Below the pieces are notes generated by a model. The model made no database searches. It had not been told where the DNA came from and saw only the letters and a list, made by a program, of their open reading frames with translations. Made by a program: the position numbers and the translations under genes. Shown here piece by piece: positions 1,677-20,608 of a DNA stretch of 22,199 bases. The stretch's first letter is position 1. Every line of letters starts with the position of its first letter. The DNA is from a virus. The stretch spans positions 1 to 22,199 of the IMG/VR virus record IMGVR_UViG_3300032116_001441; one strand, 5' to 3'.

Positions 1677-1952
1677 ATGCACAAACTCATGACCGAAGCA
1701 GACCTACAGATGCTGCAGGCCAAAGCGGTGGCGAATGCCACACAAGTGGGCGGCGCTCACTACAAACAGCACACCTACGAAACGTGGGATGTCATCCTCG
1801 ACTGGCAGCTAGGGTATCTAGACGGCAACGCTGTCAAGTACCTATCCCGCTGGCGCTCAAAGGGCGGCGTGCAAGACCTGAAGAAGGCGGCACACTACAT
1901 CCAGAAACTCATTGAAGTGGAGGAATTCAACGATGGCAACCCCGGAAAATAA
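1677..1952 (+). CDS. DUF3310 (SaV-like) protein
   Basis: This 91-aa protein shows the DUF3310 signature: GGAHY (residues 25-29), NAVKYLSRWRSKGG (51-64) and a final helix DLKKAAHYIQKLIE (67-80). The family is widespread in tailed phages. T7 gp1.7, reported as a nucleotide kinase, is usually placed in or near it, so a role in nucleotide metabolism is possible, but no kinase motif is visible here. Neither the ATG at 1677 nor the in-frame ATG at 1689 has a good ribosome binding site, so the start is uncertain by four residues. The C-terminus overlaps the nuclease gene by 20 bases, which suggests coupling. It is the first gene after the 223-bp gap. Confidence 0.88.
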   Translation: MHKLMTEADLQMLQAKAVANATQVGGAHYKQHTYETWDVILDWQLGYLDGNAVKYLSRWRSKGGVQDLKKAAHYIQKLIEVEEFNDGNPGK

Positions 1953-2235
1953 AGTCAAAGCTAAGTGCGTTGACATCATCAAGAAGTACAAAGGCTATTA
2001 CTTCTTCCCTGCACAGAATGGCTACGGTCGAGCAGGCATACCAGACATCATCGTGTGCTACCGAGGCATGTTCCTGGGTGTAGAATGCAAGGCTGGATTC
2101 AATAAGCCCACTGCTCTACAAGAGCGTGAGATGGCAGACATCCACCGTGCCGGTGGGTCCGCGATGGTGGTGCGCGAAGACACTACTGAACTGCTAGAAG
2201 AGTGGTTCCATGAGAGATCACAATGGACATCCTGA
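1933..2235 (+). CDS. VRR-NUC domain nuclease
   Basis: This 100-aa single-domain protein matches the VRR-NUC branch of the PD-(D/E)XK nucleases. E5 lies in the first helix. The catalytic core is GIPDII (D38), then GVECK (E51, K53), with Q63 in the following helix. Stand-alone VRR-NUC proteins in phages are thought to cut branched or junction DNA during recombination or replication; the substrate here is inferred. The frame is open from 1912, but the ATG at 1933 follows GGAGGA (about 1919-1924) at good spacing and gives the compact family length. It overlaps DUF3310 upstream by 20 bases and the DNA polymerase downstream by 13, so all three are probably co-translated. Confidence 0.9.
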   Translation: MATPENKVKAKCVDIIKKYKGYYFFPAQNGYGRAGIPDIIVCYRGMFLGVECKAGFNKPTALQEREMADIHRAGGSAMVVREDTTELLEEWFHERSQWTS

Positions 2236-4157
2236 CGTTGGATTTCGAGACCTATTACGACAAGGATTTCAGTCTCAGCAAGCTGACGATGGAGCACTAC
2301 ATCCGCGACCCGCGCTTCGAAGTCATCATGCTCGGGATTCGCTGGCCGGATGGCACCAAGGAGATCGTCACCGGCAGCCACGAGGAGGTGCAGTACCGGC
2401 TCGATGGCATCGAGTGGGGTAAGTACGCGGTGCTGTGCCACAACACGCTCTTCGATGCTGCCATCCTGTCATGGAGGTTTGGGGTCAATCCCGCTGCGTG
2501 GCTGGACACCCTGTCGATGGCACGTGCCATGTTCGGTATGAAGGGCAACTCGCTGGCCCTGCTTGCCAAGCGGTACGGGCTGGAGGACAAGGGCACTGCC
2601 GTGCAGAACGCGATGGGCAAACGTCGCTGTGACTTCACGCCGCAAGAGTTCAAGGAGTACGCTGACTACTGCCTGCACGACGTGCAGCTATGCCATGAAC
2701 TGTTCTTCCTGATGTCCAACGGGTGGTACAAGCCCGAGACGTTCGACCATCGAGACCCCTACCCCCGCAAGGAACTGGAGTTGATCGACCGGCTCATCAG
2801 GATGTACACCGAGCCCACGCTGCGCTTGAACGCGCAGAAGCTGGAGGAGCACCTTGCCGATGTGGTGCGGCGCAAGGATGAACTGCTGACCAAGGCGGGT
2901 ATCGCCAAGGAAGACCTGATGTCCAACCCGAAGTTCGCTTTGGTGCTGGAGTCGTTCGGTGTGTCCCCGCCGATGAAGATCAGTGCCACGACAGGCAAGC
3001 AAGCGTTCGCTTTCGCCAAGACCGACCCGGGTATGAAGGCCCTGCTGGAGCACCCTGACGACCGAGTGCAGGCTGTGGTGGCTGCCCGGATGGGGGTCAA
3101 GAGCACCCTGGAGGAGACGCGCACGCAGCGGTTCATCGACATGGCGCAGCGCAACCCGCTGTTCCCGGTGCCTCTGAGATATTCTGCTGCGAGAACGCAC
3201 CGCTTGGGTGGCACTGATGGTATAAACCTGCAGAACCTACCGGCCCGTGGGGCACAAGCCAACAAGCTCAAGAAGTGCATCGAGGCACCTCCGGGCCATG
3301 TGATCATCGACTGCGACTCGTCCAACATCGAGGCGCGGATGCTTGCGTGGCTGGCGGGGCAGGATGACCTCGTGCAAGACTTCGCCAACGGCGTGGATGT
3401 GTACTGCAAGATGGCGAGTAAGATCTTCGGTAGGCCGATAACGAAGGCGGATAAGGTAGAGCGGTTCGTAGGCAAGACGGTAGTTTTAGGTTGCGGCTAC
3501 CAAACGGGGGCGATGAAACTTCAGATCACACTGAAGGCGTCCGAGATGAACATGGACTTGGAATTGAGCGAGTGCAAGAACATCATCGACACGTACCGTA
3601 ACTCAGTGCCTGCCATCACGAGACTATGGAGGACGGGGGATAGCGCGATTGAAGCTATGCACAGGAATACGTCCATGTGGTTCGGGCGTGAAGGTGTTGC
3701 ACTGGTCGAGGGTAACAAAGGCATCAAGCTACCCAGCGGACTGTACATCAGCTACCCGCAGCTACACCGTGCGGTGAAGAGCAAGAACGGCATGGCGTTT
3801 GAAGCATGGCAGTACAAAGACGAAACCGGACTGGTGGATATATACGGAGGAAAAAGTGTTGAAAATCTGGTGCAGGCGCTGGCGCGTATCATTGTGATGC
3901 AGCAGCTACTAAAGATCTCTAAGAAGCTGCACGTGGTGTTGACTGTTCATGATGCGGTGGCTGCGATAGTTCCGGTAGGCGACGTGTCCAAGGCTATAAG
4001 GTACGACGAAGAGAAACGGTGCTACGTACCTGTTTCTGAAGAGGCGAAGGGCGCTGTTGCATACGTTGAGGAATGTATGCGTTGGGTTCCGAAGTGGGCA
4101 GCGGGCTGCCCTATCAACTGTGAAAGTGGGATTGGAAGGACGTACGGTGATTGCTGA
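2223..4157 (+). CDS. polA: Family A DNA polymerase with 3'-5' exonuclease domain
   Basis: This 644-aa protein is the replicative polymerase. The proofreading domain has Exo I DFET (D7, E9), Exo II HNTLFD (N74, D78) and Exo III YCLHD (Y149, D153). The polymerase domain has motif A DSSNIEAR (D365, E370, R372), motif B RFVGKTVVLGCGY (R414, K418, Y426) and motif C VHDAV (D577). There is no 5'-3' exonuclease domain, as usual for phage enzymes. Two residues differ from the Klenow pattern. Leu422 sits where Klenow has Phe762 and T7 has Tyr526, and Ala578 replaces the usual motif C Glu (HDA, not HDE). All other catalytic residues are present, so the enzyme is probably active. Codon use becomes less GC-rich from about 3410, roughly where motif A ends. 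The start overlaps the VRR-NUC gene. Confidence 0.97.
   Translation: MDILTLDFETYYDKDFSLSKLTMEHYIRDPRFEVIMLGIRWPDGTKEIVTGSHEEVQYRLDGIEWGKYAVLCHNTLFDAAILSWRFGVNPAAWLDTLSMARAMFGMKGNSLALLAKRYGLEDKGTAVQNAMGKRRCDFTPQEFKEYADYCLHDVQLCHELFFLMSNGWYKPETFDHRDPYPRKELELIDRLIRMYTEPTLRLNAQKLEEHLADVVRRKDELLTKAGIAKEDLMSNPKFALVLESFGVSPPMKISATTGKQAFAFAKTDPGMKALLEHPDDRVQAVVAARMGVKSTLEETRTQRFIDMAQRNPLFPVPLRYSAARTHRLGGTDGINLQNLPARGAQANKLKKCIEAPPGHVIIDCDSSNIEARMLAWLAGQDDLVQDFANGVDVYCKMASKIFGRPITKADKVERFVGKTVVLGCGYQTGAMKLQITLKASEMNMDLELSECKNIIDTYRNSVPAITRLWRTGDSAIEAMHRNTSMWFGREGVALVEGNKGIKLPSGLYISYPQLHRAVKSKNGMAFEAWQYKDETGLVDIYGGKSVENLVQALARIIVMQQLLKISKKLHVVLTVHDAVAAIVPVGDVSKAIRYDEEKRCYVPVSEEAKGAVAYVEECMRWVPKWAAGCPINCESGIGRTYGDC
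4134..4140 (+). promoter_or_regulatory. Ribosome binding site that sets a GTG start
   Basis: GGAAGGA sits six bases before the GTG at 4147, inside the end of the polymerase gene. It selects that GTG over the upstream ATG at 4057, which would overlap polymerase by about 100 bases and has no such site. Confidence 0.7.
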
Positions 4158-4326
4158 AGTTATTGACTACGCTTACCCCTGCATGATGGCAGAGAAGGCA
4201 CTGAAGGAACTGCATCAAGCGATGCTGAATAACGACTACGACGCTGCGCTTGAGCATGCGTTGACTGCGATGGCAGAGACCAAGCTGGCCTACAACGCCA
4301 TCCGGCACACCAAGGAATCGCAATGA
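4147..4326 (+). CDS. Small conserved phage protein, 59 aa, GTG start
   Basis: The function is unknown. The protein reads VIAEVIDYAYPCMMAEK at the start, followed by two helices with NNDYDAALEHALTAMAE. It has the look of a small all-helical protein often found next to phage DNA polymerases (recollection). The frame is open from an ATG at 4057, but the GTG at 4147 is chosen because of the GGAAGGA site at 4134-4140 and because the recognisable protein begins there. It overlaps the polymerase end by 11 bases and the next gene start by 4 (ATGA), so it is embedded in the replication operon. A polymerase accessory role is only a guess from position. Confidence 0.75.
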   Translation: MIAEVIDYAYPCMMAEKALKELHQAMLNNDYDAALEHALTAMAETKLAYNAIRHTKESQ

Positions 4327-5003
4327 GTCTGCCCGGTGCTTGGTCGTACAGTGGCCTGAAGAAGTTCAAGACGTGCCCGAAGCAGTTTGCCGAGGTCAAG
4401 GTCTACAAGAACTTCACCGAGCCGCCCTTCACTGAGGCCACACTGTACGGGACCAACTTCCACGAGGCGGCAGAACTCTACGTGCGCGATGGCACCCCGC
4501 TGTCTGAAGCGTTCGCATACGTCAAGCCGCATCTGGATGCCCTGCGGTCCATACCGGGGACCAAGCACTGCGAGTACAAGATGGGTCTGACCGAGGCTAT
4601 GGAGCCTTGCGCGTTCGACGCCCCTGGGGTATGGTGCCGGGGTGTGGCAGACCTGCTCATCGTTAACGAGGAGAAGGGTGTCGCCCGGGTGGTGGACTAC
4701 AAGACCGGCAAGTCAGCCAAGTACGCGGACACCGCGCAGTTGGAACTCATGGCGCTGATGGTCTTCAAGCACTTCCCCTCGGTGCACCGGGTCAAGGCAG
4801 GACTGCTCTTCGTGGTGGCGAACGACTTCAAGCGGGCCGAGTACGACAAGACTCAGGAGAAGAACTACTGGCGCACATGGATGCAGGACATCCACCGCCT
4901 GGAGACCGCGTACAAGACCGGGGTGTGGAACCCAAACCCGTCAGGACTGTGCCGTAAGCACTGCGTAGTTACATCCTGCCCACACAACGGAGTCAACAAA
5001 TGA
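4323..5003 (+). CDS. PD-(D/E)XK exonuclease with Cas4/AddB-like cysteines
   Basis: This 226-aa protein belongs to the RecB/Cas4-type PD-(D/E)XK nucleases (PDDEXK_1-like). Visible parts are the N-terminal SYSGLKKFKTCPKQF (C18), GTNFHEAAELY (H47), GVADLLIV (D110), VVDYKTGK (D125, K127) and Q139 in the helix after the core. Near the C-terminus are C210, C214 and C219. One N-terminal cysteine plus three C-terminal cysteines matches the iron-sulfur layout of Cas4 and AddB nucleases, so a 4Fe-4S cluster is plausible, though the spacing (x3, x4) differs from the common x2, x5. The likely job is end resection or recombination during phage replication. It is ATGA-coupled to the genes on both sides. 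Nothing CRISPR-related is nearby, so a Cas4 role is not implied. Confidence 0.92.
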   Translation: MSLPGAWSYSGLKKFKTCPKQFAEVKVYKNFTEPPFTEATLYGTNFHEAAELYVRDGTPLSEAFAYVKPHLDALRSIPGTKHCEYKMGLTEAMEPCAFDAPGVWCRGVADLLIVNEEKGVARVVDYKTGKSAKYADTAQLELMALMVFKHFPSVHRVKAGLLFVVANDFKRAEYDKTQEKNYWRTWMQDIHRLETAYKTGVWNPNPSGLCRKHCVVTSCPHNGVNK

Positions 5004-5421: not shown

Positions 5422-5958
5422 ATGACACAGATGAAGAACGTCATGATAGACATTGAGACGCTGGGTACTCGTCCCGGAGATACGATCTTGTCGATCGGTG
5501 CTGTGAAATTCACAGCCGAAGAAGGTATCACTGAAGAGTTCTATGTGACCATCGACCCAGAGACCTGCAAGAATGCGGGTTTGCGTGCGCAGAAGAGCAC
5601 GCTGGAGTGGTGGGAAAAGCAATCCCCCGAGGCCCGCGCCGCTGCGTTCAAAGGGGAACTGTCCCTCAACGTAGCACTCACCAAGCTGACGATGTGGATG
5701 CCCCCGCTGGACAGCGTGCTGGTGTGGGGTAACGGAGCGAACTTCGACAATACGCTGGTGGCTGCGGCGTACCGAGCCATGAAGATGGACGTGCCTTGGC
5801 ACTACTGGAACGATAGGTGCTACCGCACCATCGCCAATATGTTCCTGAAGACCCGCGTGGAGCGAGTAGGCACCGGACACCATGCGCTTGACGACGCCAA
5901 GACACAGACCTTGCGCCTGCTGAAGATGCAAGAAGAAGCCAAGTTCACGCTGAAGTGA
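5422..5958 (+). CDS. DEDDh 3'-5' exonuclease, Rv2179c-like
   Basis: This 178-aa RNase H-fold exonuclease has all four acidic DEDDh positions: MIDIET (D10, E12), NFDN (D109), and HHALDDA (H153, D158). The layout, the WGNGANFDN segment and the size fit the 3'-5' exoribonuclease Rv2179c-like family, which also covers T4 DexA-like phage exonucleases. It would degrade RNA or ssDNA from the 3' end in the cytoplasm, perhaps recycling host nucleic acid or trimming recombination ends; the substrate is not shown. The ATG follows AGGAG (5411-5415) at six bases. It is the first gene after the promoter/hairpin gap and is separate from the polymerase's own proofreading domain. Confidence 0.93.
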   Translation: MTQMKNVMIDIETLGTRPGDTILSIGAVKFTAEEGITEEFYVTIDPETCKNAGLRAQKSTLEWWEKQSPEARAAAFKGELSLNVALTKLTMWMPPLDSVLVWGNGANFDNTLVAAAYRAMKMDVPWHYWNDRCYRTIANMFLKTRVERVGTGHHALDDAKTQTLRLLKMQEEAKFTLK

Positions 5959-5966
5959 GGTAAGTC

Positions 5967-6164
5967 ATGGCTACGCAAAAAGAACTCAAAGATATCTGTC
6001 ATCTTATGTTTGAAATCTTGAGTGACAGTGACCTAACAAACTCAGAAGCACTGGAGATAGCACTCAACTTTTACGGGACAGTCTGCGTTCAAACTGATGT
6101 AACTGTTCATGATGCTGTAGGTGGGGTCATGACCTTCTACAAAAAACAACATGCAAATAGTTGA
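5967..6164 (+). CDS. Hypothetical small protein, 65 aa
   Basis: I do not recognise this protein. It is acidic to neutral and predicted helical (MATQKELKDICHLMFEILSD at the N-terminus), with no motif or membrane segment. The start is supported by GAGG (5957-5960) six bases upstream. It begins eight bases after the exonuclease stop and overlaps the helicase start by 14 bases, so it sits firmly inside the operon. Codon use is more AT-rich than its neighbours, which may mean a later acquisition. Confidence 0.72.
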   Translation: MATQKELKDICHLMFEILSDSDLTNSEALEIALNFYGTVCVQTDVTVHDAVGGVMTFYKKQHANS

Positions 6165-7692
6165 AGACAAAGCTCTGCTGCTCAAGCTCAAGCACCCCGA
6201 GCGGGTGCTGAACACCATCCCGAAAAGCAAACGCTTGGACGATGGGCAGGTGCTGGTGCGGTGGGGGCTTGAGGAAGCACAGGTGCTGAAGAACCTCGGT
6301 GTTCGGTCGGTGCCTTCTCCCATCGAGCGCAGGTACAAGTGGCCTGGGCTGTTCAAGCCCTTCGAACACCAGAAGGACACCGCATCGTTCCTTACCCTGC
6401 ACCGCAGGGCGTTCTGCTTCAACGACCCGGGCACGGGCAAGACTGCATCCTTCGCCTGGGCTGCTGACTACCTGCTGGACAAAAAGTACATCAGCCGTGT
6501 GCTGGTGATCTGCCCGCTGTCAATCATGAACTCGGCGTGGAGAGCAGACCTGTTCAAGACGCTGATGCACCGCAGGGTGGATGTGGCCCACGGCAGTCGG
6601 GACAAGCGGGTCAAGGTGATCAAGTCCGACGCTGAGTTTGTCATCATCAACTTCGATGGTGTGGAGACGGTGCTCGATGAACTCAGAGCAGGTGGGTTTG
6701 ACCTTGTGATTATTGATGAAGCAAATGCGGTGAAGACCGCTACGACGAAAAGATGGAAAGCAATCAACTCATTACTAACTCCCAACACATGGCTGTGGAT
6801 GGCAACGGGGACACCAGCATCTCAGGCCCCGACAGACGCATACGGTTTGGCCCGTATGTTGAACCCTTCCTCCGTGCCTCCGTACTTCTATTCCTTCAGG
6901 GATACAGTCATGTACAAGGCAACGCAATTCAAATGGACCGCAAAGAAAAACGCAGCAGAGATCGTCAACAAGGTGCTGCAACCCGCCATACGTTACACCA
7001 AGGATGAGTGCCTGGACCTGCCTGAGCTTCTGTACACGACACGTGAGGTAGACCTGACCCCGCAGCAGTCGAAGTATTACAAGATGCTCAAGGATCAGTT
7101 CATCATGGCAGCGGCAGGGGAGACAGTCACCTCAGTCAACGCAGCGACCAACCTGAATAAACTTCTTCAAGTGGCAAGCGGTGCGGTTTATACGGACGAT
7201 GGCAACACCGTCGAGTTCGACATCACGAACCGGTACAACGTGCTGGTAGAAGCTATCGATGAGAGCACCCACAAGGTGCTGGTCTTCGTCCCGTTCCGCC
7301 ATGCCATCGAGGTTCTGCGCGACAGGCTGCGCAAGGATGGGTACGCAGTGGAGGTGATTCACGGGGGCGTCTCAGTGACCCGCCGCACAGAGATCTTCCA
7401 AGCGTTTCAGACCGAGCCCGAGCCGCGCATCCTCCTCATACAGCCTGCGGCTGCATCGCATGGCGTCACCCTGCACGCTGCCAACACAGTGGTGTGGTGG
7501 GGTCCTGTCACTTCGAACGAGATCTGGCACCAAGCCAATGCACGGGTGCACCGTGCAGGCCAGAAGAACCCCTGCCTCGTGGTCAGGCTTTGCGGCTGCA
7601 ACGTCGAGCGCAAGCTCTACGCGGCTCTGGACCTGAAGACCGAGGACATGGACTCCCTTCTCAATTTGTACAAGGAGGAGCTTGACGTTTGA
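6151..7692 (+). CDS. SNF2-type superfamily 2 helicase
   Basis: This 513-aa SF2 ATPase has a phage-sized two-RecA-domain core. Motif I is NDPGTGKT (91-98, K97). Motif Ia is the VICPLS region near 119-124. Motif II is DEAN (189-192) in place of the SNF2 DEAH/DEGH. Motif III is TGTP (219-222). Motif V/VI is HQANARVHRAGQ (460-471), which carries the SNF2 arginine fingers and RxGQ. Such phage proteins probably translocate on dsDNA and remodel forks or strip proteins during replication. There is no accessory chromatin domain. The ATG has no strong ribosome binding site and lies 14 bases inside the preceding gene, so coupling is likely. Codons turn AT-richer from about 6700 to 6960, then GC-rich again. 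The stop overlaps the start of a promoter candidate. Confidence 0.96.
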   Translation: MQIVEDKALLLKLKHPERVLNTIPKSKRLDDGQVLVRWGLEEAQVLKNLGVRSVPSPIERRYKWPGLFKPFEHQKDTASFLTLHRRAFCFNDPGTGKTASFAWAADYLLDKKYISRVLVICPLSIMNSAWRADLFKTLMHRRVDVAHGSRDKRVKVIKSDAEFVIINFDGVETVLDELRAGGFDLVIIDEANAVKTATTKRWKAINSLLTPNTWLWMATGTPASQAPTDAYGLARMLNPSSVPPYFYSFRDTVMYKATQFKWTAKKNAAEIVNKVLQPAIRYTKDECLDLPELLYTTREVDLTPQQSKYYKMLKDQFIMAAAGETVTSVNAATNLNKLLQVASGAVYTDDGNTVEFDITNRYNVLVEAIDESTHKVLVFVPFRHAIEVLRDRLRKDGYAVEVIHGGVSVTRRTEIFQAFQTEPEPRILLIQPAAASHGVTLHAANTVVWWGPVTSNEIWHQANARVHRAGQKNPCLVVRLCGCNVERKLYAALDLKTEDMDSLLNLYKEELDV

Positions 7693-9398: not shown

Positions 9399-12206
9399 AT
9401 GTCTCATCTTGGATTCTTAGAAGGCATTCTTCCAGAAGGAACACGGTACTCTCTCAGGCACATCAACAAAGCATCTAATTCAGCGTTCAATAAGTTCTAC
9501 GACTCCGTCGCCAGCATGGCGGAGGCCGTGGCAAATCCGAAGGAAGGCTTTGACATTTACTACGTCACAGCAGGATTCGGAGCAGGACAGAGCGCAGTAT
9601 CAGAGAACGCTGTAGCAAAGAGAGAACTGTACGTTGACATCGATTGTGGCCCGACGAAGTCATACGCCGACAAAACTGCGGGCATCGCTGCACTGAAAGA
9701 TTTCTGTGTAGCCACAGAACTGCCAAGACCTACGATTGTGGATTCAGGCAATGGCCTGCATGCACATTGGATTTTCAAAGAAGCCGTGCCTGTGCACGAG
9801 TGGATCGGAGCAGCTAACGCGCTAAAAGCGCTGTGCAAAAACAAAGGGTTCGAAGTTGACAACGCATGTACCGCAGACATCGTGCGGGTGCTGCGCATAC
9901 CGGGCACCGTTAATAGCAAGGGGGGCAACACAGTCGCTCTGTTAACCCCACTCAGGTACTACGATTTTGAGAAGCTGAAAGGCATCCTTGGCGGTGGCCC
10001 ACCCGTCATGTCGTTTGAGAAAGCCAGGGAGCTTTCGAAGGGCGCATCGTCTAGCGTGACGAAGCATCTGGCAGCAAGTGATCCCAACAGGGTGAGCTTG
10101 TTTGAAACAATCTGGATGCGTTCTGTTGGAGGTACGGGCTGTGCTCAAATCAAAAATGCGATTGAGAATTCGGAGACACTTCCCGAGCCAACGTGGCGGG
10201 CAGTTCTATCTATCGCTTACCACTCAGAGGACAAAGACTGGGCAATACATAAGGTATCGGAAAATCATCCGAATTACTCTGCGCAAGAGACTGAACAAAA
10301 AGCTGCTGCGACAAAAGGTCCGTACACTTGCGAGACGTTCCAAGGTCTAGATACAGGGCACCTGTGCAAGGACTGCCCGCAAGCTAGCAAGATCAAGTCC
10401 CCGATCCAGTTGGGTGTGCAGATCAAGACAGCACCGGAAGGCCCAGCTAAGGTTGAGATTGCTGGCAGGAAGTTTGAGATTCCTGCCTTCGTGTGGCCCT
10501 ACAAGCGTGGTGCAAACGGTGGGGTGTACTTAGAAACCACCTCTGACAACGGCACCAAAGATGAATTGATCTACCCGTATGACCTGTATGTGTACCGACG
10601 CATGCGGGACTCAGAGATGGGTGATGTGATCTGGATGCGGCACCATCTGCCAAACGATGGCGTGCGTGAGTTCATGGTCGCGCAGAGGGAAGTGGGCTCC
10701 ATCGACAAGTTCCGGGACCGTCTCAACGAGCAGGGGGTCGCCGTATTCGGCCAAGCGCAACTGGTCAAGTTGCAGGGCTACGTAGCGAAGTCTATTCAGG
10801 ATCTACAACATCGGGATAAGGCAGAAGAAATGTACGGCAGGTTCGGTTGGACGAAGAACAACACGTTCATCGTAGGTGATCGGGAGTACACCAAGAAGGG
10901 TGTGATCTATGCACCTGTGACTCGGAATCTGGAGAAGTACATACATTGGTTCTCTCCCAAGGGTTCCCTGGAAGAGTGGAAGCGCATCGCCGCTGCCTAC
11001 GAAGACCCGAGGTTCGACCTGCACGCATTCGGTGTGCTGGCAGGGTTTGGCAGTGTCCTGATGAATCTGTCGCCTGAGAACGGCGCGGTGGTCAACTACT
11101 ACTCCAAGCGCAGCGGCACGGGCAAGACCACCATCCTGCGGGTGGTCAACTCGATCTTCGGAGACCCCAAGGCGCTGATGAAGGATGCGCAGGACACGCA
11201 GTTGACCAAGGTGCACCGCATGGGTGTGCTGAACGGCATCGCCATGTGCCTTGACGAGATGACCAACACCAGCCCGCAGGAGATGTCTGGGCTGCTCTAC
11301 GGTAGCACGCAGGGGCGGGCACGGGACCGTATGGAGGCAGGGCGCAACATGGAGCGCATCAACGACCTGATCTGGAAGCTGATTACCATCTGGTCGAGCA
11401 ACACCAACATCGAAGACCGGCTGAGCATGATCAAGGTGGACCCGCAGGGGGAGATGGCTCGCGTCATCGAGTTCTACCTACAGACACCCGTACCCTCTGA
11501 TGTGCTGGGGGCGCAGAAGTTGTTCAACGGTTTGAGTGATCACTATGGTCACGCAGGTGATGTGTTCTTGAAGTATGTGGTGCCCCACCTCGACGCAGTG
11601 CAGGGCATCTGGGAAGAGACGCGAGATGTTATCTACACGATGGGTAACTGGACGCAGACTGAACGGTATCGTCTTAATGCTGTGATCTGCGCTATTGCAG
11701 CGGGGGTAGTCACAAACACGCTGGGGCTGACCAACTACAACGTCAAGCGGATCATGCGTACTGTGCTTGACCACATCAAGAACACGGTAGAGCAGGCCAA
11801 GCAGCAGTCCACCAAGGCTACGGAAACCTTTGCCTCGTTCATCAACAAGAACGTCGGTAACATGCTGAGCATCGACTCCAGGCAGCGGGCGAATGGCTTG
11901 CAGAACGAAGCCTATGTGAAGCCCAAGGGGTCACTCATGATCCGCTACGAGCCTGATACGAAGGACCTGTACGTCGTGCAGAAGGACTTCAACAGGTGGT
12001 GTGCGGAGATCTACATCAACACACGGGAACTGCCCGACCTGTTCTTTGCAGAGACAGGGCATAGATTGGAAGTTATCAAGAAGCGTATGGGTGCTGGGTG
12101 GGACGCTGACTTTGGCGCAGTCAATGTCTACTGCATAAAGAATGCAGGGGCTGTGCTAGGATTTGCAGACCATGAGATGGTTACCGACAAGACCACTGAA
12201 GATTAA
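9399..12206 (+). CDS. AEP primase-polymerase fused to DUF927-type helicase
   Basis: This 935-aa bifunctional replication protein makes primers and unwinds DNA. The N-terminal archaeo-eukaryotic primase domain has YVDIDCG (D80, D82), DSGNGLHAHW (H121) and RIPGTVNSKGG (R166 onward), the three AEP motifs. A linker region carries C248 and then C311, C323, C326 (YTC, HLCKDCP), a probable zinc or Fe-S site. From about residue 365 a DUF927-type superfamily 3/D5-like helicase follows, with Walker A RSGTGKTT (571-578, K576) and Walker B CLDEM (D619, E620). The length fits phage primase-helicases. The ATG lacks a Shine-Dalgarno, but MSHLGFLEGILPEG looks like the true N-terminus. Third-position GC is visibly lower up to about 10380 than in the helicase half. 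It overlaps the next gene by 35 bases. Confidence 0.95.
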   Translation: MSHLGFLEGILPEGTRYSLRHINKASNSAFNKFYDSVASMAEAVANPKEGFDIYYVTAGFGAGQSAVSENAVAKRELYVDIDCGPTKSYADKTAGIAALKDFCVATELPRPTIVDSGNGLHAHWIFKEAVPVHEWIGAANALKALCKNKGFEVDNACTADIVRVLRIPGTVNSKGGNTVALLTPLRYYDFEKLKGILGGGPPVMSFEKARELSKGASSSVTKHLAASDPNRVSLFETIWMRSVGGTGCAQIKNAIENSETLPEPTWRAVLSIAYHSEDKDWAIHKVSENHPNYSAQETEQKAAATKGPYTCETFQGLDTGHLCKDCPQASKIKSPIQLGVQIKTAPEGPAKVEIAGRKFEIPAFVWPYKRGANGGVYLETTSDNGTKDELIYPYDLYVYRRMRDSEMGDVIWMRHHLPNDGVREFMVAQREVGSIDKFRDRLNEQGVAVFGQAQLVKLQGYVAKSIQDLQHRDKAEEMYGRFGWTKNNTFIVGDREYTKKGVIYAPVTRNLEKYIHWFSPKGSLEEWKRIAAAYEDPRFDLHAFGVLAGFGSVLMNLSPENGAVVNYYSKRSGTGKTTILRVVNSIFGDPKALMKDAQDTQLTKVHRMGVLNGIAMCLDEMTNTSPQEMSGLLYGSTQGRARDRMEAGRNMERINDLIWKLITIWSSNTNIEDRLSMIKVDPQGEMARVIEFYLQTPVPSDVLGAQKLFNGLSDHYGHAGDVFLKYVVPHLDAVQGIWEETRDVIYTMGNWTQTERYRLNAVICAIAAGVVTNTLGLTNYNVKRIMRTVLDHIKNTVEQAKQQSTKATETFASFINKNVGNMLSIDSRQRANGLQNEAYVKPKGSLMIRYEPDTKDLYVVQKDFNRWCAEIYINTRELPDLFFAETGHRLEVIKKRMGAGWDADFGAVNVYCIKNAGAVLGFADHEMVTDKTTED

Positions 12207-12468: not shown

Positions 12469-15400
12469 TCACCGACCCATCTGGATGTCCCGCGCCATCT
12501 TGCGCAGCATCTGCGCCTGCTGTGCCAGCTTGTTCTGCTCCACACGCAGTTCATCGATGCGCTTGCGCCGCTCCTCAGGGCTCAGGGAGGTGTCGCGGTC
12601 GATCATCATGGCGGCTTGGTTCAGGGCGCGGATGCCGCTCATGACCCCCTGCACCGGGCCACGGATCGAGTACAGGCCGATGTTGTCTTGGATGAACTGA
12701 TCCACGTCCTCAGGCTTGCGCTCCATCAGGCGGTTCACCGTGCCGTTGACCTGCTCCACGCGCTTCTCCAAGTCGTAGATGAAGTCAAGTTGGCGGGTGC
12801 CGATGGGGTCCTTGATGACCGCGCTCAGGCCCGTAAGTTGTGCACCTAGCTGCTGGTTCAGTGGCCGGTCGGTACGCCCGGGGTTGATCATCATGTCAGC
12901 CATCGACAGGCCCAGCCCTGCAGCCGTGCCGAAGATACCGCGCACAGCGTTCTCCAGCTTGATCGGAGAGACAGCGAAGGCTTCGATACCTGTGGCGTTG
13001 GCAGCGTCCTCCAAACTCTTGGCGAGGGCCTTCATCGCATCTGATGTGCCAGTACCGTACCGCTCAAACGGACGCAGTGCCTGCTGAGCCTGAGACTCCA
13101 GTGGTCTGCCAAGGAACCACGAGTAGTTCGTCATGTTCTCAACGAACGGGCGCAACACCTGCGGTGTGATGTTGGGCGATGAGAAAACATCGACCCCCCG
13201 CTTGGCTAAGTTACCCACCACGTCGAGTGCAGTCTGCTCCTCCTCGGTGCCATACATCTTGTAGTAGCGGACGATGCGCTCAGGGATGGCCTTGAAGAAG
13301 AACGCGAGTTCAGCAGGAATCGGGATGGCAGGTACGAAGCCCAGTTCCTTCCCGTAGGGCAGTATCCAGTTGGTATCCCGCACGTGGTCAGGTAGCTGCT
13401 GGTACTCCTCATCATCCTGCATCAACAGCGCATACAACAAGCCCATCGAGGTCATCACCCCCATGCGCTTGTAGAACATGGACCGTGCGGTGCCTGTGCT
13501 CTGCCCAACAACACCCCCAGCCGCTGCCGTTGCCAGCTTGTCCATGCCTCGCGCATAGGCATTGAAGAAGGGGATGACGCTGATCAGCAGATTCATTACC
13601 TGGGATGAACCACGGCGGCTGAAGTTGATGATCTCCCGTGCAGCAGACTCAGCCTGAGCCTTGTCACCGTTGGTCTCCTTCATCACCTGATCGTAGACAG
13701 CTTGACGCACTGCGAGGTCCGATGCCTTGGCACCGGCTTCCATCACGCGCATGATCTTGGAGCCAAGACCTTCTTCCTTCGCCCCAGCTTCCTCAAGGAT
13801 GTTCTTGAGGTTGCCCTGCTGGCTGAAGTCGAACGTGCCGACGATACCGAGGGCCTCCAAGTTCTTGATGTCCTTGGGCTTCTTCTTGAAGATCTCGTTC
13901 ACCCAGTTCTTGGGGAAGTTCAGCATCACGCTCTTGACAAGCGCTGCGTTGTTCTTCACCCCTGCGTAGGTGTAGGCACGGACGATGTCGTCGAAGACCT
14001 GCTTGATCGCAAACGGTGGCATGGATGTCACACCAGCACGCAGGATCTGAGAACCTTTCTGTAGTAGCTTGAACGAGTCTGGGATGACCGGGTCTTGGAT
14101 ACTGAACGCAATGAAGTGCGCTGGGTCCGGTACGTAGTACTCGACGGGCTTGCCGTTGTCGTAGACGGTGACCATGTCCCCCGGTGAGTCCTTGGCAGGC
14201 TTGGTCGGGCGCTTGAATGCTGCACCCATCAGGGCCATATCCTTGAGTGCACTCAGGGCGGCGTGGTTCTTCATCGCCTCCTTTGTTGCCCAGTCAACCA
14301 GCCCGGAGAAGTTCTCGACCGGTGAAGTCGTTTTGCGCCCACTGCCTTCCAGCTTGCGGATGTTACGTAGGGCTGCGACACCACGGTTGGCACCCTTGGT
14401 GGACTGATACGCCTTCTCGTAGTCACCGAGTCGGTTGAAGGGGATGTAGCCCGTGGCGTCCTTGTAGTCCTGGGCTCGATCCTTGGAGATGCGCCCTGTA
14501 TCAACCAGCGTGTCCAGCAGGTTGAAGCGGATGGTGTCGAGGTCGGCGGAGATCTGCTTGATGAAGTCGTCTTTCTGGAAGGCTGCTTCCAGTTCATCGA
14601 TCTTGGCGTCGGGCAGGAGTAGTTCGATCCGATCAGTCTTAGGCAGGGTCTTGTTGGTCTCACGCAGACCGTGCTCCCGGTGCCCGTAGAGAACCGTGTC
14701 GAGCTTGGTGCGGAAGGCTTCGTAGGTCTCACCCCGCTGTTTGGCAGCCTCAGCGATGCGGTTCAGCACGCCTGTGTAGCTGACGGGTCGGCCCTCGGCA
14801 TCCTGCAGATCCTTGGCAACGATGAGCCCGCTGTCGAAGCCCAGCCCACCTTGTTCCTGCACAGCCTTGCTGACGCGCAATGAGTCGAGCGCCCGGGACA
14901 AGAGCACCATCGGGTTCAACCGCCCCTTGGCAGTACGGGTAGCGCCACCGTAGGCGTTGACGAAGAAGTCTTCCAGCGGGGCCAGCGAGTCGGTGAACTT
15001 CATCCGCAGCTTGAGTGCGGGGTTGCCCTTGAGGTCCTGCGCGATGCGTTGGGTCAGCGTCTGACGCTCTTTCTCACCGATGACATCTACATCCTTGACG
15101 GCTGCTTCGGTCTGCGGGGTGAGGCGCGGGCTGGCCTGCGGGGTGAGATTGTCTGCAGCCTGCTTCAATTCAGCGAGTTCAGCGGGGGTAAATCCAGCAC
15201 CACTGTAGCTGCGAATGTCTACGTTAGTGACTATTACACCTTGCTTGGCAGCAACGTAGATTGTCTTGTTTGCAGTTGACGTACCTTCGTACAGGGCAAC
15301 AGGGCCTTTGTTCCATACAGGCTTCAGGCCACGAGATTCTTTCAGCACCCAACTTGGGATACCAGTTGTGTTAGCTTGCTTACCGAAAGACAACCCCCGC

Positions 15401-18400
15401 CTATTTGCTTCAGCGATATACGGAACCAGAGACTCGTCAAGAATCTCTTCAGACACAGCCATCAACCGTGCAAGCGCACTGGTTTCCTTACCCTTCAGCC
15501 CAAGCACCTGGGAGACGATGTTGAACATCCGACTGAGGAACGTGCCCCCAGACGGGTCAGTAATCGACGCTAGCCAGTTTTGGGTTTCTCCGTTGGTAAG
15601 GCCGTATGCTAGGAGTTCCTTGGGGTTCTCCAAAGCGTTGAGGATCACGCCCTTTTCAGTAGCAGTGAGAGTTTTAGCTTTATACCTTTGGTTATAGATA
15701 CTGACGAGTTCTTGCTGGAGAGCACGGAGCTTGATCGCTGCTGTACTCTGCGGAGCATATGTGATTTGGGCTGACGTTACGGCGTGAATTAGCTCGTGTA
15801 CCAACGTCTCTTGATTGATGGTGTTGCTTGGATTGCCTGTAAAGCCATTGAGTGTGACCTTGACAGCCATAGCGTCACCGAGCCCAGCAGGAGTCGTTGT
15901 TGCAACGCCAAGAGCACCTGTCAGAACCCTACCCTGCGGGGTAAGTTCGAAGTCGAACTGCACGCCGTTGTTCGCTAGTTCCTCAGCGCGGCGCTTGACT
16001 TTGACCAGAATCTGTCGATCGAGGTCATCTCGGGCGTTCCTGATCGCGTAGTCGATCGACTCGGTGAAAGACTTCCCACGCAGGGCGGCGTCCATCTGCT
16101 TGGAGTTTTCCAAGTCAACGGGGCCGGTGCGGGTCTGTTGGAAGTCAGTGTCTTCGTCGCTCAGTCGTCGTGTAGTGCTATCCCGCGCTGCCTCTGCTTC
16201 CGCTTCTGCCGCTGCCTCTGCTTGTGCTGCTTCCTCTTCGGTCAGCACTTGATCCGGTGCAACTTCCTCAGGGATGATTCCTTCTTCCTCTGTCTGCGCT
16301 TCTTCCTCTGCAACCAGCTTGCCATAGGCACGGTTGATAGCTGCGTCAGTACCCACTCTGTCAGCTTTGCGGCGGGCTGCAACCTCTGCGTTCAACTGCT
16401 GCATCACAGCAGTGTTGTCCTTGGCGTCGTACCGAGAAGCGCGTGAGTAGATGTCAGCCAGTTGGCGGGTGTCGAGCTTGCTGAAGTCAAAAGAACCCGT
16501 CTTGGTCAGTGCGGGGCGGAAGAAAGCCTGCACCTTTGGTGTAGCCTGCTTAAGCGCTTTCTCAGCTTCTTTGTATTCCTTGAAGTTAGGAGCGTCTTTC
16601 TTAGGAGCTTTACCGTCAACTTGTAGGGCTTTTACACGAGCAACAAGCGCGTCGTATTCCGCATCTGTTTGAACAGGTTTTGCAGGGGCTTCATACAGAA
16701 TCCCAGCCTTGGGGTTCTCCACCGAGATGCCGGATAGGCTTGCCTCAGAGACGTTCTTGGCAATACCGATAGCCCCAGTCTGCGCAGCCTGGAACCGGCT
16801 AATCACGTCAGCCGTGATGCCCAAGGTCTCAGCGATGCGGCGCACGTTGGCACCGGAGCTTTTTGCAAGTCCTACAGACTGTGCAGCTTCGTCGGCAGAG
16901 TAGGTAGTGGGCAGGTAGTCACCGTCCTCATCCACGCCAATGTAGGTCAGCACCGCCTTGAGCATCTTGGGGTCACGCCCCTTGAGCGCTTGCCGTACAG
17001 CCGGTATGTCGAGGATGGGCTTGCCGTCCCTCACTTCAAAGACGCCGGTTGCACCAGCCTTCTCCAGCTTCTGCTTGAGCGTGCCAGTTTCAGCAGGGCT
17101 GAGCGCATCCGACTGCGCTTGCCCCATCACTGTCGTGGGGGCTTCTTCAGCTTCACCCAGCAGTTCAGCACGGTAGTCGGCGGCCTGCTCTTCAGTGATC
17201 CGACCAGACTCAATCAGCGAAGTGAGTTCACGCTCAATCTGAGCGGGCGTGGGAGGCGTTACTGCAGGCGGCTCTGTTCCTTCTCTTCCAGCAGCCCCTG
17301 TAACATCCGCGACAGGAGAAACCACTCCATCTGGTTCAGGTCCAACTCCTTCGGCGGTGCTGACGGCAGCGGGTCCGCCAGCCACTGGAACGCCTGCTCC
17401 ACCTGCTTCTGGCTGAGGTTCTGCAACACTTGGGGTCTCCGGTTGTACTGGGGGTGGAGCAAACTTGGCCTTGAACTCCGTCAGCTTGGTACGGGACTCT
17501 TCAGTGCCGTTACCCCGCACAAGGTAGTTCTCGATGTCAGCAAGGACAGCGTCTCGTTGCGCAGGGTCCTCAAGATCTTTGCCCAACATGCGCCGATAGA
17601 TCGGCTGCTTTTTACTGACGCCGAGGGCTTCAATGTCAGCGGGCTGCAAGCCAGTCGCAGGGGGTTCACCGGGCTTTCTAACCTTGGGCTCTTCGATAGC
17701 TGCTGCGGGCTGCTCTTCAGCCGCTGCCGTGACTTCTTCACGGGGGGTGATCTGTGCTGCTGCCGCTTCTTCGGCAGTCATGAACCCCTTGGCTGCTTCG
17801 CTAGTGGAGCGCTGCTCCTCAATGTACGCTACGTTGAGTGCCTTGCGTTTTTCAGCCGCTGCCTTCAACGCCTCATCACGCTCCTTGGATTTCGGAAGCG
17901 TCTTCAGTTGTTCGCTGTACAGAACAAGTTCAGCGTAGGTGTCAGGCGGAGGTAGGATGCCCGCCGCAGGAGGTGCAGGGGGTTGTGCAGCAGCTTTAGC
18001 CGCAGCTTGTTCAGCAGCAAGGCGCTCGGCACGCTCGATGGGCTTTTCCCCGGGTAGGGTTCCCGGGGCAGGCTGCGCAGCACGTGCGCGACGACCCAAG
18101 GCCAAGTCCATCAAGCCCTGCACGATGGCACCAGTTGCACCACCGTAGGCCGCTGCCTCACCCAGCCCCTCGATGAGTTCCTGCTCAGGCTTGTAGACGC
18201 CCTTGGCGATCAGGTTCTGGGCGAAGTTCGACGCTGCTTCCTGAGCAGCTTCCTCACCACCTGCAAGCGCAGCACGCTTGACCAACTGCACGCCCTGAGC
18301 CGTGGCAGCATCAGGGATACGAGACAGGATGCGGAAGGGTGCGAAGACTTCCATCGCCCCGGGGATGATCCCGAGCGCCGTCGCGGTGCTGCGCTGCTCC

Positions 18401-18882
18401 GCAGTAGCACCTTCCTTCTCGGCACGTCCACGTGCTTCACCAGCACCGGCTCCAACACCCAAACCAACCGCACCGATACGACCCGCAAGGCCAAGAGGAC
18501 CCGCAGCCAAGAACGGCACCGTTGAGCCGAGGGCTTCGCCCAGCTTACGCCCGACTGACTCCTCGTACCCTGCAGAGGCAGCGAACGGTGCTTTGGCTGC
18601 GCCAGCGATGCTGGCAATCTTCTCCCGCGCCGTCTTCTCGTAGTCCTCAGGCAAGAGCGCAGAGGCACCCACAGCCGCTGATTCAACCAGCCCTACAGCA
18701 CCGGGCACCAAGCCCTTGAACGCTTCACCAACCTGCCCGAGGACGGTTGTTTCAGGCGGCGGCTTCGCCGCATCAGGGTACTGAGCAAGCAGGGCCTGGA
18801 CGATCAGCGCTTGAGGTGCCCCCGCAGGTCCCTCGATCTGATATGTCTTACCGTTCGGGGCTTGGACACGGTACAGCGCCAT
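12469..18882 (-). CDS. Giant polyvalent virion protein with metallopeptidase and LPD38
   Basis: This 2137-aa protein is probably packaged and injected with the DNA. Residues 1-45 (MALYRVQAPNGKTYQIEGP...) form a small beta unit seen at the start of similar phage proteins. Residues about 55-265 are Gly/Ala-rich and hydrophobic (such as GAVGLGVGAGAGEARG) and could contact or cross membrane. About 270-560 is a Pro/Ala/Glu-rich linker. A zinc metallopeptidase follows: TLVHELIHAV, with H1029, E1030, H1033. The C-terminal third, including SQVMNLLISVIPFFNAYARG near 1758, resembles large polyvalent protein domain 38 (LPD38). Such multi-domain proteins are described as phage polyvalent proteins that act on the host after entry. 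The targets of the peptidase are unknown. Codons around 15170-16680 look more AT-rich than the flanks. It is the last gene of the - strand operon, starting four bases after its neighbour. Confidence 0.93.
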   Translation of the reverse strand: MALYRVQAPNGKTYQIEGPAGAPQALIVQALLAQYPDAAKPPPETTVLGQVGEAFKGLVPGAVGLVESAAVGASALLPEDYEKTAREKIASIAGAAKAPFAASAGYEESVGRKLGEALGSTVPFLAAGPLGLAGRIGAVGLGVGAGAGEARGRAEKEGATAEQRSTATALGIIPGAMEVFAPFRILSRIPDAATAQGVQLVKRAALAGGEEAAQEAASNFAQNLIAKGVYKPEQELIEGLGEAAAYGGATGAIVQGLMDLALGRRARAAQPAPGTLPGEKPIERAERLAAEQAAAKAAAQPPAPPAAGILPPPDTYAELVLYSEQLKTLPKSKERDEALKAAAEKRKALNVAYIEEQRSTSEAAKGFMTAEEAAAAQITPREEVTAAAEEQPAAAIEEPKVRKPGEPPATGLQPADIEALGVSKKQPIYRRMLGKDLEDPAQRDAVLADIENYLVRGNGTEESRTKLTEFKAKFAPPPVQPETPSVAEPQPEAGGAGVPVAGGPAAVSTAEGVGPEPDGVVSPVADVTGAAGREGTEPPAVTPPTPAQIERELTSLIESGRITEEQAADYRAELLGEAEEAPTTVMGQAQSDALSPAETGTLKQKLEKAGATGVFEVRDGKPILDIPAVRQALKGRDPKMLKAVLTYIGVDEDGDYLPTTYSADEAAQSVGLAKSSGANVRRIAETLGITADVISRFQAAQTGAIGIAKNVSEASLSGISVENPKAGILYEAPAKPVQTDAEYDALVARVKALQVDGKAPKKDAPNFKEYKEAEKALKQATPKVQAFFRPALTKTGSFDFSKLDTRQLADIYSRASRYDAKDNTAVMQQLNAEVAARRKADRVGTDAAINRAYGKLVAEEEAQTEEEGIIPEEVAPDQVLTEEEAAQAEAAAEAEAEAARDSTTRRLSDEDTDFQQTRTGPVDLENSKQMDAALRGKSFTESIDYAIRNARDDLDRQILVKVKRRAEELANNGVQFDFELTPQGRVLTGALGVATTTPAGLGDAMAVKVTLNGFTGNPSNTINQETLVHELIHAVTSAQITYAPQSTAAIKLRALQQELVSIYNQRYKAKTLTATEKGVILNALENPKELLAYGLTNGETQNWLASITDPSGGTFLSRMFNIVSQVLGLKGKETSALARLMAVSEEILDESLVPYIAEANRRGLSFGKQANTTGIPSWVLKESRGLKPVWNKGPVALYEGTSTANKTIYVAAKQGVIVTNVDIRSYSGAGFTPAELAELKQAADNLTPQASPRLTPQTEAAVKDVDVIGEKERQTLTQRIAQDLKGNPALKLRMKFTDSLAPLEDFFVNAYGGATRTAKGRLNPMVLLSRALDSLRVSKAVQEQGGLGFDSGLIVAKDLQDAEGRPVSYTGVLNRIAEAAKQRGETYEAFRTKLDTVLYGHREHGLRETNKTLPKTDRIELLLPDAKIDELEAAFQKDDFIKQISADLDTIRFNLLDTLVDTGRISKDRAQDYKDATGYIPFNRLGDYEKAYQSTKGANRGVAALRNIRKLEGSGRKTTSPVENFSGLVDWATKEAMKNHAALSALKDMALMGAAFKRPTKPAKDSPGDMVTVYDNGKPVEYYVPDPAHFIAFSIQDPVIPDSFKLLQKGSQILRAGVTSMPPFAIKQVFDDIVRAYTYAGVKNNAALVKSVMLNFPKNWVNEIFKKKPKDIKNLEALGIVGTFDFSQQGNLKNILEEAGAKEEGLGSKIMRVMEAGAKASDLAVRQAVYDQVMKETNGDKAQAESAAREIINFSRRGSSQVMNLLISVIPFFNAYARGMDKLATAAAGGVVGQSTGTARSMFYKRMGVMTSMGLLYALLMQDDEEYQQLPDHVRDTNWILPYGKELGFVPAIPIPAELAFFFKAIPERIVRYYKMYGTEEEQTALDVVGNLAKRGVDVFSSPNITPQVLRPFVENMTNYSWFLGRPLESQAQQALRPFERYGTGTSDAMKALAKSLEDAANATGIEAFAVSPIKLENAVRGIFGTAAGLGLSMADMMINPGRTDRPLNQQLGAQLTGLSAVIKDPIGTRQLDFIYDLEKRVEQVNGTVNRLMERKPEDVDQFIQDNIGLYSIRGPVQGVMSGIRALNQAAMMIDRDTSLSPEERRKRIDELRVEQNKLAQQAQMLRKMARDIQMGR

Positions 18883-18886
18883 TTAC

Positions 18887-20608
18887 TTATCCCCCGACAG
18901 GAGTTACTTTGAACAGCTTGAGGATGTCAGGATCAATCCCACCAGCGGCAGGAGCAGCGGGGGTTTCTTTACCTACGATCCGATTGTATTCACGCTGAAT
19001 CAGAGTGTCGATAAACTTTTGCTGGTCAAACGGCCTACCAGTTTTCTGTGCTTCTATCTTCGCGTTCTGCAAAAGCAGGGGTAGGTTCTTGTCCTGCCTC
19101 ACATTGTCCGTAGCTTTTTCACGCAGGTTAGCCTTTTGAGATTCAGTCAGTTCACCAGATCCACGCATCGATGCAGCTTTTAGGGTGGCAGCTATCTGTT
19201 CTTGAGCGCTCAGTCGTTGCAGGTCCTGACCACGAGCAGTGAGTCTACGCTGTTCAGCGCGGTCCGCTTCGGTGGCACGCTCCTTCTGAATATTCAACCG
19301 GGTCAAGCCAAGGTTAGCCTTGGCTTCTTCAACCTTGAGCGCCGCATTGCGTTCACCCTGGACATCACCGGTTGTCTGCGCCAACTTGAGATCCGCTTGA
19401 GCTTGACGGAGTTGATCAAGTGCGTTCTGTTCTGCACGGTTCTCACGTTGTACAAGCTCTAGTGCCCTGCGCTGTTCGCCACGAATAGCCCCAGCTTCCT
19501 GACCGATGCTGCTGAACGCATCACCAATACGCTTGCCGCCCTTCATCGCGCCGAGCATGCGGAACAAGGCTTCTTGGTTGTCGAAGAGGCTTTGAGATAG
19601 CGGCATACCCGCAGCTTCCAACGCTCCTGCAGCGCGTTTTTCACGCTCACCAATACCCCGCTGGGCAAGCTCAGCGGCTTCCTTCCGAGCAGCGACGATG
19701 CGCGGGTCAACTTGAGCCTGCGACGCCAAAAGTTTCTGCAGTCCTTCGACTCGGGCGCGTTCATCTGCCTCAAGCTCAGCCAGCCGATCAGGCGCAGGGG
19801 TTCCCGTCTGCTCTACAGCACTACCAAGTTGTTGCAGGGGTGTAGCGGGTGCCGCTTGTGGGCGGTTTTGAGGACGCGGTAGCCCAGTACCCGGACGTGT
19901 CGCGCCTGGAGGGCGTGGTGCTGCAACGGGGGCAGCCTGCATTGCCGCTTCCATTTGTTGTGCAGTCATTGCTGTAGGAGTACGTGCTTTCTCAGCCGCA
20001 AGCACCTCGTCAATCCCGCTGGAATACGAAGGAGCAGCAAACTTACGAGACGTAAGCTCTATACCAGCAGCGCGGAGTTTTTCATTCTCCTCCGGCGTCC
20101 GTATCAGCGGACTCTTTTTCAGGATACGTTCGATTTCAGGGTTACCCCCGCTTTGGAACGCCACCGCACCGCCACCTGCGTAGCTGTGCATCTCGCCACC
20201 GTGCGCTGCCATGACGGGTGCTGCCTGGGGTTGGAGTTGACGACGGGCCTGTGCCACAACTTCGTCTGCAATCGTGCCTTGCTGCGCAGCGTTTTGTCGC
20301 ATAGCAAGTTCGTTTGCAACCGCCTTCTTCGTAGCAAAATTCTTCTGCTGTTCAATAATCGCAGCAAGAACTCGGTTCGCGGGCACTGGTGACCTGGGGT
20401 CAAACAGCATTTTCGTAAGTTCTTCAGTGTCGTAGCCCGCTGTCAAGGCAGGCACAAACGCCGTCAACCCAGGTTTCGGCCCCGACTGGCTAGGCATCAT
20501 CCCCGGCATCGGTGGTGTTTGCATAGGCGCTTGACCGGGCATCGGAGCTTGCGCCCCTTGTGGCATCTGCGCCCCTTGTGGCATCACCGAACGAATACCT
20601 TGCTGCAT
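18887..20608 (-). CDS. Probable internal virion protein, 573 aa, coiled coil
   Basis: No enzymatic domain is visible. Residues 1-50 are Met/Pro/Gln/Gly-rich with a duplicated MPQGAQ. Residues 137-155 contain HGGEMHSYAGGGAVAFQSGG, a Gly-rich motif common in structural proteins of podovirus-like phages. About 210-270 is Ala/Pro-rich. Residues about 275-480 are strongly helical and charged (rich in Glu, Arg, Gln, Ala), predicting long coiled coils. The C-terminus is short and Pro/Gly-containing. It sits between another coiled-coil protein and the giant polyvalent protein, an order that fits internal or ejection proteins. The start has AAGGA about six bases upstream; the gaps are 9 bases to the upstream gene and 4 to the downstream one. 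The virion role is inferred from context and composition. Confidence 0.88.
   Translation of the reverse strand: MQQGIRSVMPQGAQMPQGAQAPMPGQAPMQTPPMPGMMPSQSGPKPGLTAFVPALTAGYDTEELTKMLFDPRSPVPANRVLAAIIEQQKNFATKKAVANELAMRQNAAQQGTIADEVVAQARRQLQPQAAPVMAAHGGEMHSYAGGGAVAFQSGGNPEIERILKKSPLIRTPEENEKLRAAGIELTSRKFAAPSYSSGIDEVLAAEKARTPTAMTAQQMEAAMQAAPVAAPRPPGATRPGTGLPRPQNRPQAAPATPLQQLGSAVEQTGTPAPDRLAELEADERARVEGLQKLLASQAQVDPRIVAARKEAAELAQRGIGEREKRAAGALEAAGMPLSQSLFDNQEALFRMLGAMKGGKRIGDAFSSIGQEAGAIRGEQRRALELVQRENRAEQNALDQLRQAQADLKLAQTTGDVQGERNAALKVEEAKANLGLTRLNIQKERATEADRAEQRRLTARGQDLQRLSAQEQIAATLKAASMRGSGELTESQKANLREKATDNVRQDKNLPLLLQNAKIEAQKTGRPFDQQKFIDTLIQREYNRIVGKETPAAPAAGGIDPDILKLFKVTPVGG
20550..20585 (-). 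repeat. Two perfect 18-bp tandem repeats
   Basis: The 18-base unit TGCGCCCCTTGTGGCATC (as + strand) occurs at 20550-20567 and again at 20568-20585 without change. It encodes MPQGAQ twice near the N-terminus of the 573-aa protein. A recent slippage duplication is likely. Confidence 0.85.

Follow-up and report, generated by a model that had tools for sequence, protein, structure and literature searches.

The locus examined here raises the question of how a family A DNA polymerase is built when it lacks a residue that textbook accounts list among the conserved active-site carboxylates of the family, Glu883 in Klenow numbering. The window, which is the whole analysed stretch of 22,199 nucleotides from IMG/VR virus record IMGVR_UViG_3300032116_001441, carries a polymerase gene with alanine at this position and with leucine at Klenow 762. 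The original prediction treated the two residues as a pair that might give the enzyme distinctive kinetics or fidelity. We asked whether they belong together, and what else changes when Glu883 is absent. The polymerase gene contains the following features.

2223..4157, + strand: family A DNA polymerase with DEDDy 3'-5' exonuclease, 644 aa (translation, PF00476, phrog_17, AlphaFold2, Foldseek)
2241..2681, + strand: exonuclease motifs D7-E9, D78 and Y149-x3-D153, all intact (codon read-out)
3270..3272, + strand: Lys350, at Klenow Arg690 (alignment columns)
3309..3311, + strand: Asp363, at Klenow Ser703, two residues before the motif A Asp (position -2); candidate replacement acid (alignment columns)
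3315..3332, + strand: motif A, from catalytic Asp365 (Klenow D705) to steric-gate Glu370 (Klenow E710), invariant in the alignment
3462..3500, + strand: motif B, R414-K418-L422-Y426, with L422 at Klenow 762 (alignment, codons)
3942..3944, + strand: Thr574, at Klenow Gln879 (alignment columns)
3948..3956, + strand: motif C, V-H576-D577-A578-V, with Ala578 at Klenow Glu883 (alignment, codons)

The window polymerase is a variant of a known enzyme family. It matched PF00476 in the profile search (E 9.6e-25, 87.7 bits against a cut-off of 34.3), the phrog_17 family 'DNA polymerase' (E 1.8e-88) and Klenow (E 3.6e-16), and it was the only protein of the 22,199-base record to match PF00476. When its AlphaFold2 model (pLDDT 92.9, pTM 0.90) was searched with Foldseek, the Klenow, Bst and Taq polymerases were hit at probability 1.00, the TM-score by query length being 0.59-0.68 among the matches listed, and the palm-fingers-thumb fold and the exonuclease domain were both present in the model. 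In an alignment of 38 relatives, D7, E9, D78, Y149 and D153 of the exonuclease were invariant, and so were Asp365, Glu370, Arg414, Lys418 and Asp577 of the polymerase domain. The proposal of a complete exonuclease-plus-polymerase enzyme was confirmed by these intact exonuclease motifs. The family A motif set (D365, E370, R414, K418, Y426, H576 and D577) was complete apart from Glu883, with Ala578 standing where the HDE triad has its Glu. The motif C Glu is no defining mark of family A membership, because many phage members also lack it. The fold and all other catalytic motifs are those of the Klenow fragment of E. coli Pol I, which differs from the window enzyme in Phe762, Glu883, Ser703, Arg690 and Gln879; whole E. 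coli Pol I has in addition a 5' nuclease that the window enzyme lacks. Judged by its sequence, the gene appears to encode an ordinary phage replication enzyme of predicted activity.

When the enzyme was aligned with T7 polymerase and further members of family A, L422 fell on Klenow position 762 and A578 on position 883. The motif B codons are CGG for R414 (3462-3464), AAG for K418 (3474-3476), TTA for L422 (3486-3488) and TAC for Y426 (3498-3500), so that Leu is the fourth residue after Lys, as had been read before. In motif C, VHDAV, the codons are CAT for H576 (3948-3950), GAT for D577 (3951-3953) and GCG for A578 (3954-3956), and codons and alignment agreed with the earlier reading that Ala replaces Glu. 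Sequencing error at positions 762 and 883 was ruled out by a second IMG/VR record (3300027793_000623; L002), and also by the close relatives, all of which carry Leu762 and Ala or Ser at 883. The polymerase of the second record is 100% identical to that of the window over 644 residues, so the two records probably sample a single phage. At position 883, the clade uses every one of the four Ala and six Ser codons. This codon saturation, with only Ala or Ser kept, indicated that the residue is under selection.

The genes flanking the polymerase are listed below, with their frequency in 60 long HD[A/S] loci where it was counted.

1912..2235, + strand: endonuclease adjoining polA (phrog_93, PHROG match), in 47/60 loci
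4323..5003, + strand: RecB-like PD-(D/E)XK nuclease (PF12705, E 1.1e-15), in 57/60 loci
5422-5958: second DEDD-type exonuclease, a separate gene of the same replication block (PF16473), rare, in 3/60 loci
6151..7692, + strand: SNF2-like helicase (PF00176, PF00271), in 54/60 loci
9399..12206, + strand: DUF927 / primase-helicase-like protein of the replication block (PF06048, E 1.1e-23; phrog_8841), in 50/60 loci
12469-18882, - strand: protein of 2137 aa whose LPD38 domain lies close to the C-terminus (domain match), probably a large virion protein

A gene of the phrog_93 type near another such polA in a relative was annotated as VRR-NUC. The PHROG search gave no match for the gene at 18887-20608 (- strand), next to that of the 2137-aa protein. 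RecB-like and SNF2-like genes beside polA are the layout described for the Leu762 Group I polymerases of virioplankton (Nasko 2018, PMC6302109), and the window shares with them both these neighbours and Leu762. The proposed kinship with virioplankton Leu762 enzymes was thus upheld, and on these two marks the phage may be assigned to a Group I type. The subclade of the window differs from Group I in its HD[A/S] motif, Asp or Glu at -2, Lys at 690 and Thr at 879.

We then compared the distribution of Leu762 with that of Glu883 loss. Leu762 was present in 113/113 representative relatives. The 80 closest viral contigs (49-100% identity over the best segment) all had Leu762 together with Ala or Ser at 883, and Glu in none. 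More distant Leu762 enzymes had HDE, among them those of Rhizobium phage RHph_TM3_14A, Pseudomonas phage KPP25, Aeromonas phage phiA008 and Bacteroides phage BO1, as well as enzymes on bacterial genome contigs; in total, HDE was the motif in 43/113 representatives. The phage enzymes of this kind (RHph_TM3_14A, KPP25 and a Pseudomonadales MAG contig, L096) share with the window enzyme about 32-48% identity, the domains, Leu762 and an overlapping neighbourhood, but have HDE, a small residue at -2 and Arg at 690. In a tree of the 113 representatives, built without the motif C columns, the split between HDE and HD[A/S] corresponded to exactly one change (SH-aLRT 93), with three further changes between Ala and Ser. 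The loss of Glu883 was fixed in the window's subclade, which is nested within the HDE-keeping Leu762 phages.

Outside the Leu762 clade, HDS was found in 81/81 HMO-2011-like enzymes (Phe762) and in T5-like, SPO1-like (BSP38), Thermus and Zobellviridae enzymes, and HDA or HDC in Friunavirus-type enzymes; in most of these lineages the Glu883-less motif is accompanied by Phe762. Glu was kept at 883 in 74/74 cellular or prophage rows from bacterial genomes, where an apparent 'VHDI' proved to be a pattern artefact, the true motif C being VHDEL. Viral contig searches with single distant proteins as query returned few or no relatives. Among the enzymes compared, many phage members have lost Glu883, and this loss is not tied to Leu762. 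The claimed link between Leu762 and HDA fails because Leu762 also occurs with HDE, and HDS or HDA commonly with Phe762; Leu762 is spread much more widely than HD[A/S]. The original prediction was to be refuted by another residue at 762, by a nearby Glu standing in for Ala578, or by HDA being common and neutral in the family: L422 held its place, but HD[A/S] turned out to be common and a candidate replacement acid, Asp363, was present in motif A, which largely counts against the prediction.

Some Leu762 polymerases had unusual contexts. Three with HD[A/S] (L093, L094 and L095) came from contigs that binning had assigned to an archaeon, to a Dehalococcoidia chromosome (CP070693) and to a Legionella MAG; these may be prophages or mis-binned phage contigs. 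Three with HDE (L097, L099 and L165) had in-frame inserts of about 120-290 aa in motif B, just past the conserved Lys-Thr. These inserts start with Cys and end with His-Asn before a Cys, and resemble inteins placed in the polymerase active site.

Within the Leu762 clade, contrasting HDE with HD[A/S] enzymes at each alignment column picked out position 363, which was Ala, Thr, Ser or another non-acidic residue with HDE, and Asp, Glu or Asn with HD[A/S]. Among 266 loci, D/E/N/Q at -2 was found in 0/64 phage enzymes with HDE and in 200/200 with HD[A/S] (195 D/E and 5 N). The HMO-2011 family has Glu at -2, and in two further scans, some records of which overlap the HMO-2011 set, all complete rows lacked Glu883 and had Glu or Gln at -2. 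In the cellular/prophage controls, -2 was A/S/T/V/I in the 71 readable rows of 74, and Klenow 690 was Arg throughout. The phage enzymes had Arg at 690 with HDE, and usually Lys when Glu883 was absent. The original prediction had also considered a nearby Glu standing in for Ala578; none was conserved in motif C, and the acidic candidate, Asp363, lies in motif A instead. In the structure model, Asp363 is predicted to share one strand (359-365) with Asp365.

That all Glu883-less enzymes have an acid at -2 was ruled out by phiYS40 (Phe), the T5-like SP15 (Ala), L338C (Ala), QDWS535 (Ser) and RHph_TM61 (His), which have neither acid nor amide there. Others had an amide: Gln in Quill and BSP38, and Asn in MEP401. 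Most Glu883-less enzymes thus have Asp, Glu, Asn or Gln at -2, but the swap of an acid to this position is not obligatory.

We also scanned 334 polymerase-domain columns for the same Glu/non-Glu shift in two separate groups, the Leu762 clade (43 with Glu and 70 without) and the non-Leu762 enzymes (38 with Glu and 51 without). The median column scored 0. The strongest columns were, in order, window positions 350 (Klenow 690), 578 (883), 574 (879), 401 and 363 (703). On loss of Glu883, the residue shifts from Arg to Lys at 690, from Gln to Thr at 879, conservatively from Val to Ile at window 401, and from small to acidic at 703. In the aligned sequences, enzymes without Glu883 thus differ in a specific way at three further positions of the active site, and this covariation recurs in a distant Phe762 clade.

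A two-trait likelihood test was performed on an 80-row tree built without the motif columns concerned. For association with Glu883 loss, p was 0.009 when the trait scored at -2 was an acid and 1e-4 when it was D/E/N/Q, and 5e-6 for a residue other than Arg at 690; the test is liberal, as p was also low, at 0.016, for the unrelated trait Leu762, whose association ran in the opposite direction. Independent losses of Glu883 were few, with 5 changes on a tree, 3 of them on well supported branches. In an independent-pairs test on the 3 well supported pairs, the acid shifted together with Glu883 loss in an average of 1.9 pairs and in no pair against it, which is the expected sign from too few pairs to reach significance.

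Four enzymes with LTVHDE, which have Thr at 879 and keep Glu (L099, L148, L153 and L154), sit among HDE relatives, and the deepest HD[A/S] rows (L095 and L186) have Asn at -2. These two groups may be intermediates, hinting at the order of events. The enzyme of Aeromonas phage phiA008 (L084), with HDE, Ala at -2 and Arg at Klenow 690, stood beside the window on a long branch in one tree and was placed elsewhere in another; if the former placement is true, all three positions would have reverted jointly.

The notion that Leu762 and HDA form a special combination with distinctive kinetics or fidelity starts from the presence of both in the window enzyme and from Leu762 point mutants, which made Taq slower and more accurate and were lethal on their own in T7 (PMC9069017, PMC13228545). 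It is improbable, since HDE accompanies Leu762 in 43/113 representatives, a Glu883-less motif C accompanies Phe762 in most other lineages, and Leu762 and Glu883 loss are negatively associated across lineages in the two-trait test. Even harder to credit is an impaired polymerase domain in a protein that serves mainly as an exonuclease or accessory factor. The lost residue is counted among the metal-site residues of Bst polymerase (PMC13207698), but the five polymerase-domain residues named above are invariant in 38 relatives, Tyr426 is present and the record holds no other PF00476 match. In addition, native Leu762 enzymes, taken without regard to their motif C, can be active (5/8 expressed; PMC9069017), and so can HDS phage enzymes (PMC9324360).

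A more serious alternative, possible though rather doubtful, is that phage family A polymerases can simply do without Glu883, which drifted to Ala, Ser, Gln or Cys, with Asp363, Lys350 and Thr574 as mere lineage markers. Tt72 polymerase, a natural HDS phage enzyme, is active, and its S616A variant keeps 76% of activity while D615A keeps 4% (PMC9324360), indicating that Glu is dispensable there. The enzymes of Thermus phage Tt72 and its relative phiYS40 lack Glu883 (HDS) as the window enzyme does, and phiYS40 also has Thr before VHD and Lys at 690; unlike the window enzyme they have Phe762, and the Phe read at -2 in phiYS40 means that no acid was relocated. Several lineages lack an acid at either place, and independent transitions are few. 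Against drift, the shifts at 690, 703 and 879 repeat in two distant clades and stand out among 334 columns, HDE was never seen with an acid at -2, and Ala/Ser is strictly retained despite codon saturation. The Puniceispirillum phage HMO-2011-like enzymes also lost Glu883 (HDS) and have an acid, Glu, at -2, but they differ from the window enzyme in Phe762, in their replication genes (DnaB-like helicase, RNR) and in their distant position in the tree.

We favour, with a probability of roughly 55%, the reading that the window encodes an active replicative and proofreading polymerase of a Leu762 Group I-type tailed phage, in which Glu883 was lost once and a co-evolved set of residues replaces it. 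The usual two-metal chemistry should hold through Asp365 and Asp577 because this essential pair is intact. Glu883, the third textbook carboxylate, would have been lost once in an ancestor, and the replacement set would comprise Asp363 (Asp or Glu at -2), Lys350 (where Klenow has Arg690) and Thr574 (where Klenow has Gln879). Asp363, perhaps paired with Lys350, may do the structural or metal-positioning job of Glu883 in an enzyme that we infer to be active. More tentatively, and at somewhat less than even odds, the third carboxylate may have moved at least twice independently from Klenow 883 to 703, with coupled changes at 690 and 879, giving a second wiring of the two-metal site. We found no description of this HD[A/S]/-2 acid/Lys690/Thr879 set in the literature searched, which covered few subscription papers.

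The combination of Leu762 and HDA is not special, and the co-evolved alternative active-site set is the more interesting result. The T7 study invoked unknown compensating changes for native Leu762 enzymes (PMC13228545). If the exchange described here is functional, it would bear on work with these enzymes. The compensation seen here goes with the loss of Glu883 and not with Leu762. Against its textbook conservation, Glu883 is absent from large phage groups, and a functional exchange would make these phages a natural experiment on the role of the Glu883 carboxylate.
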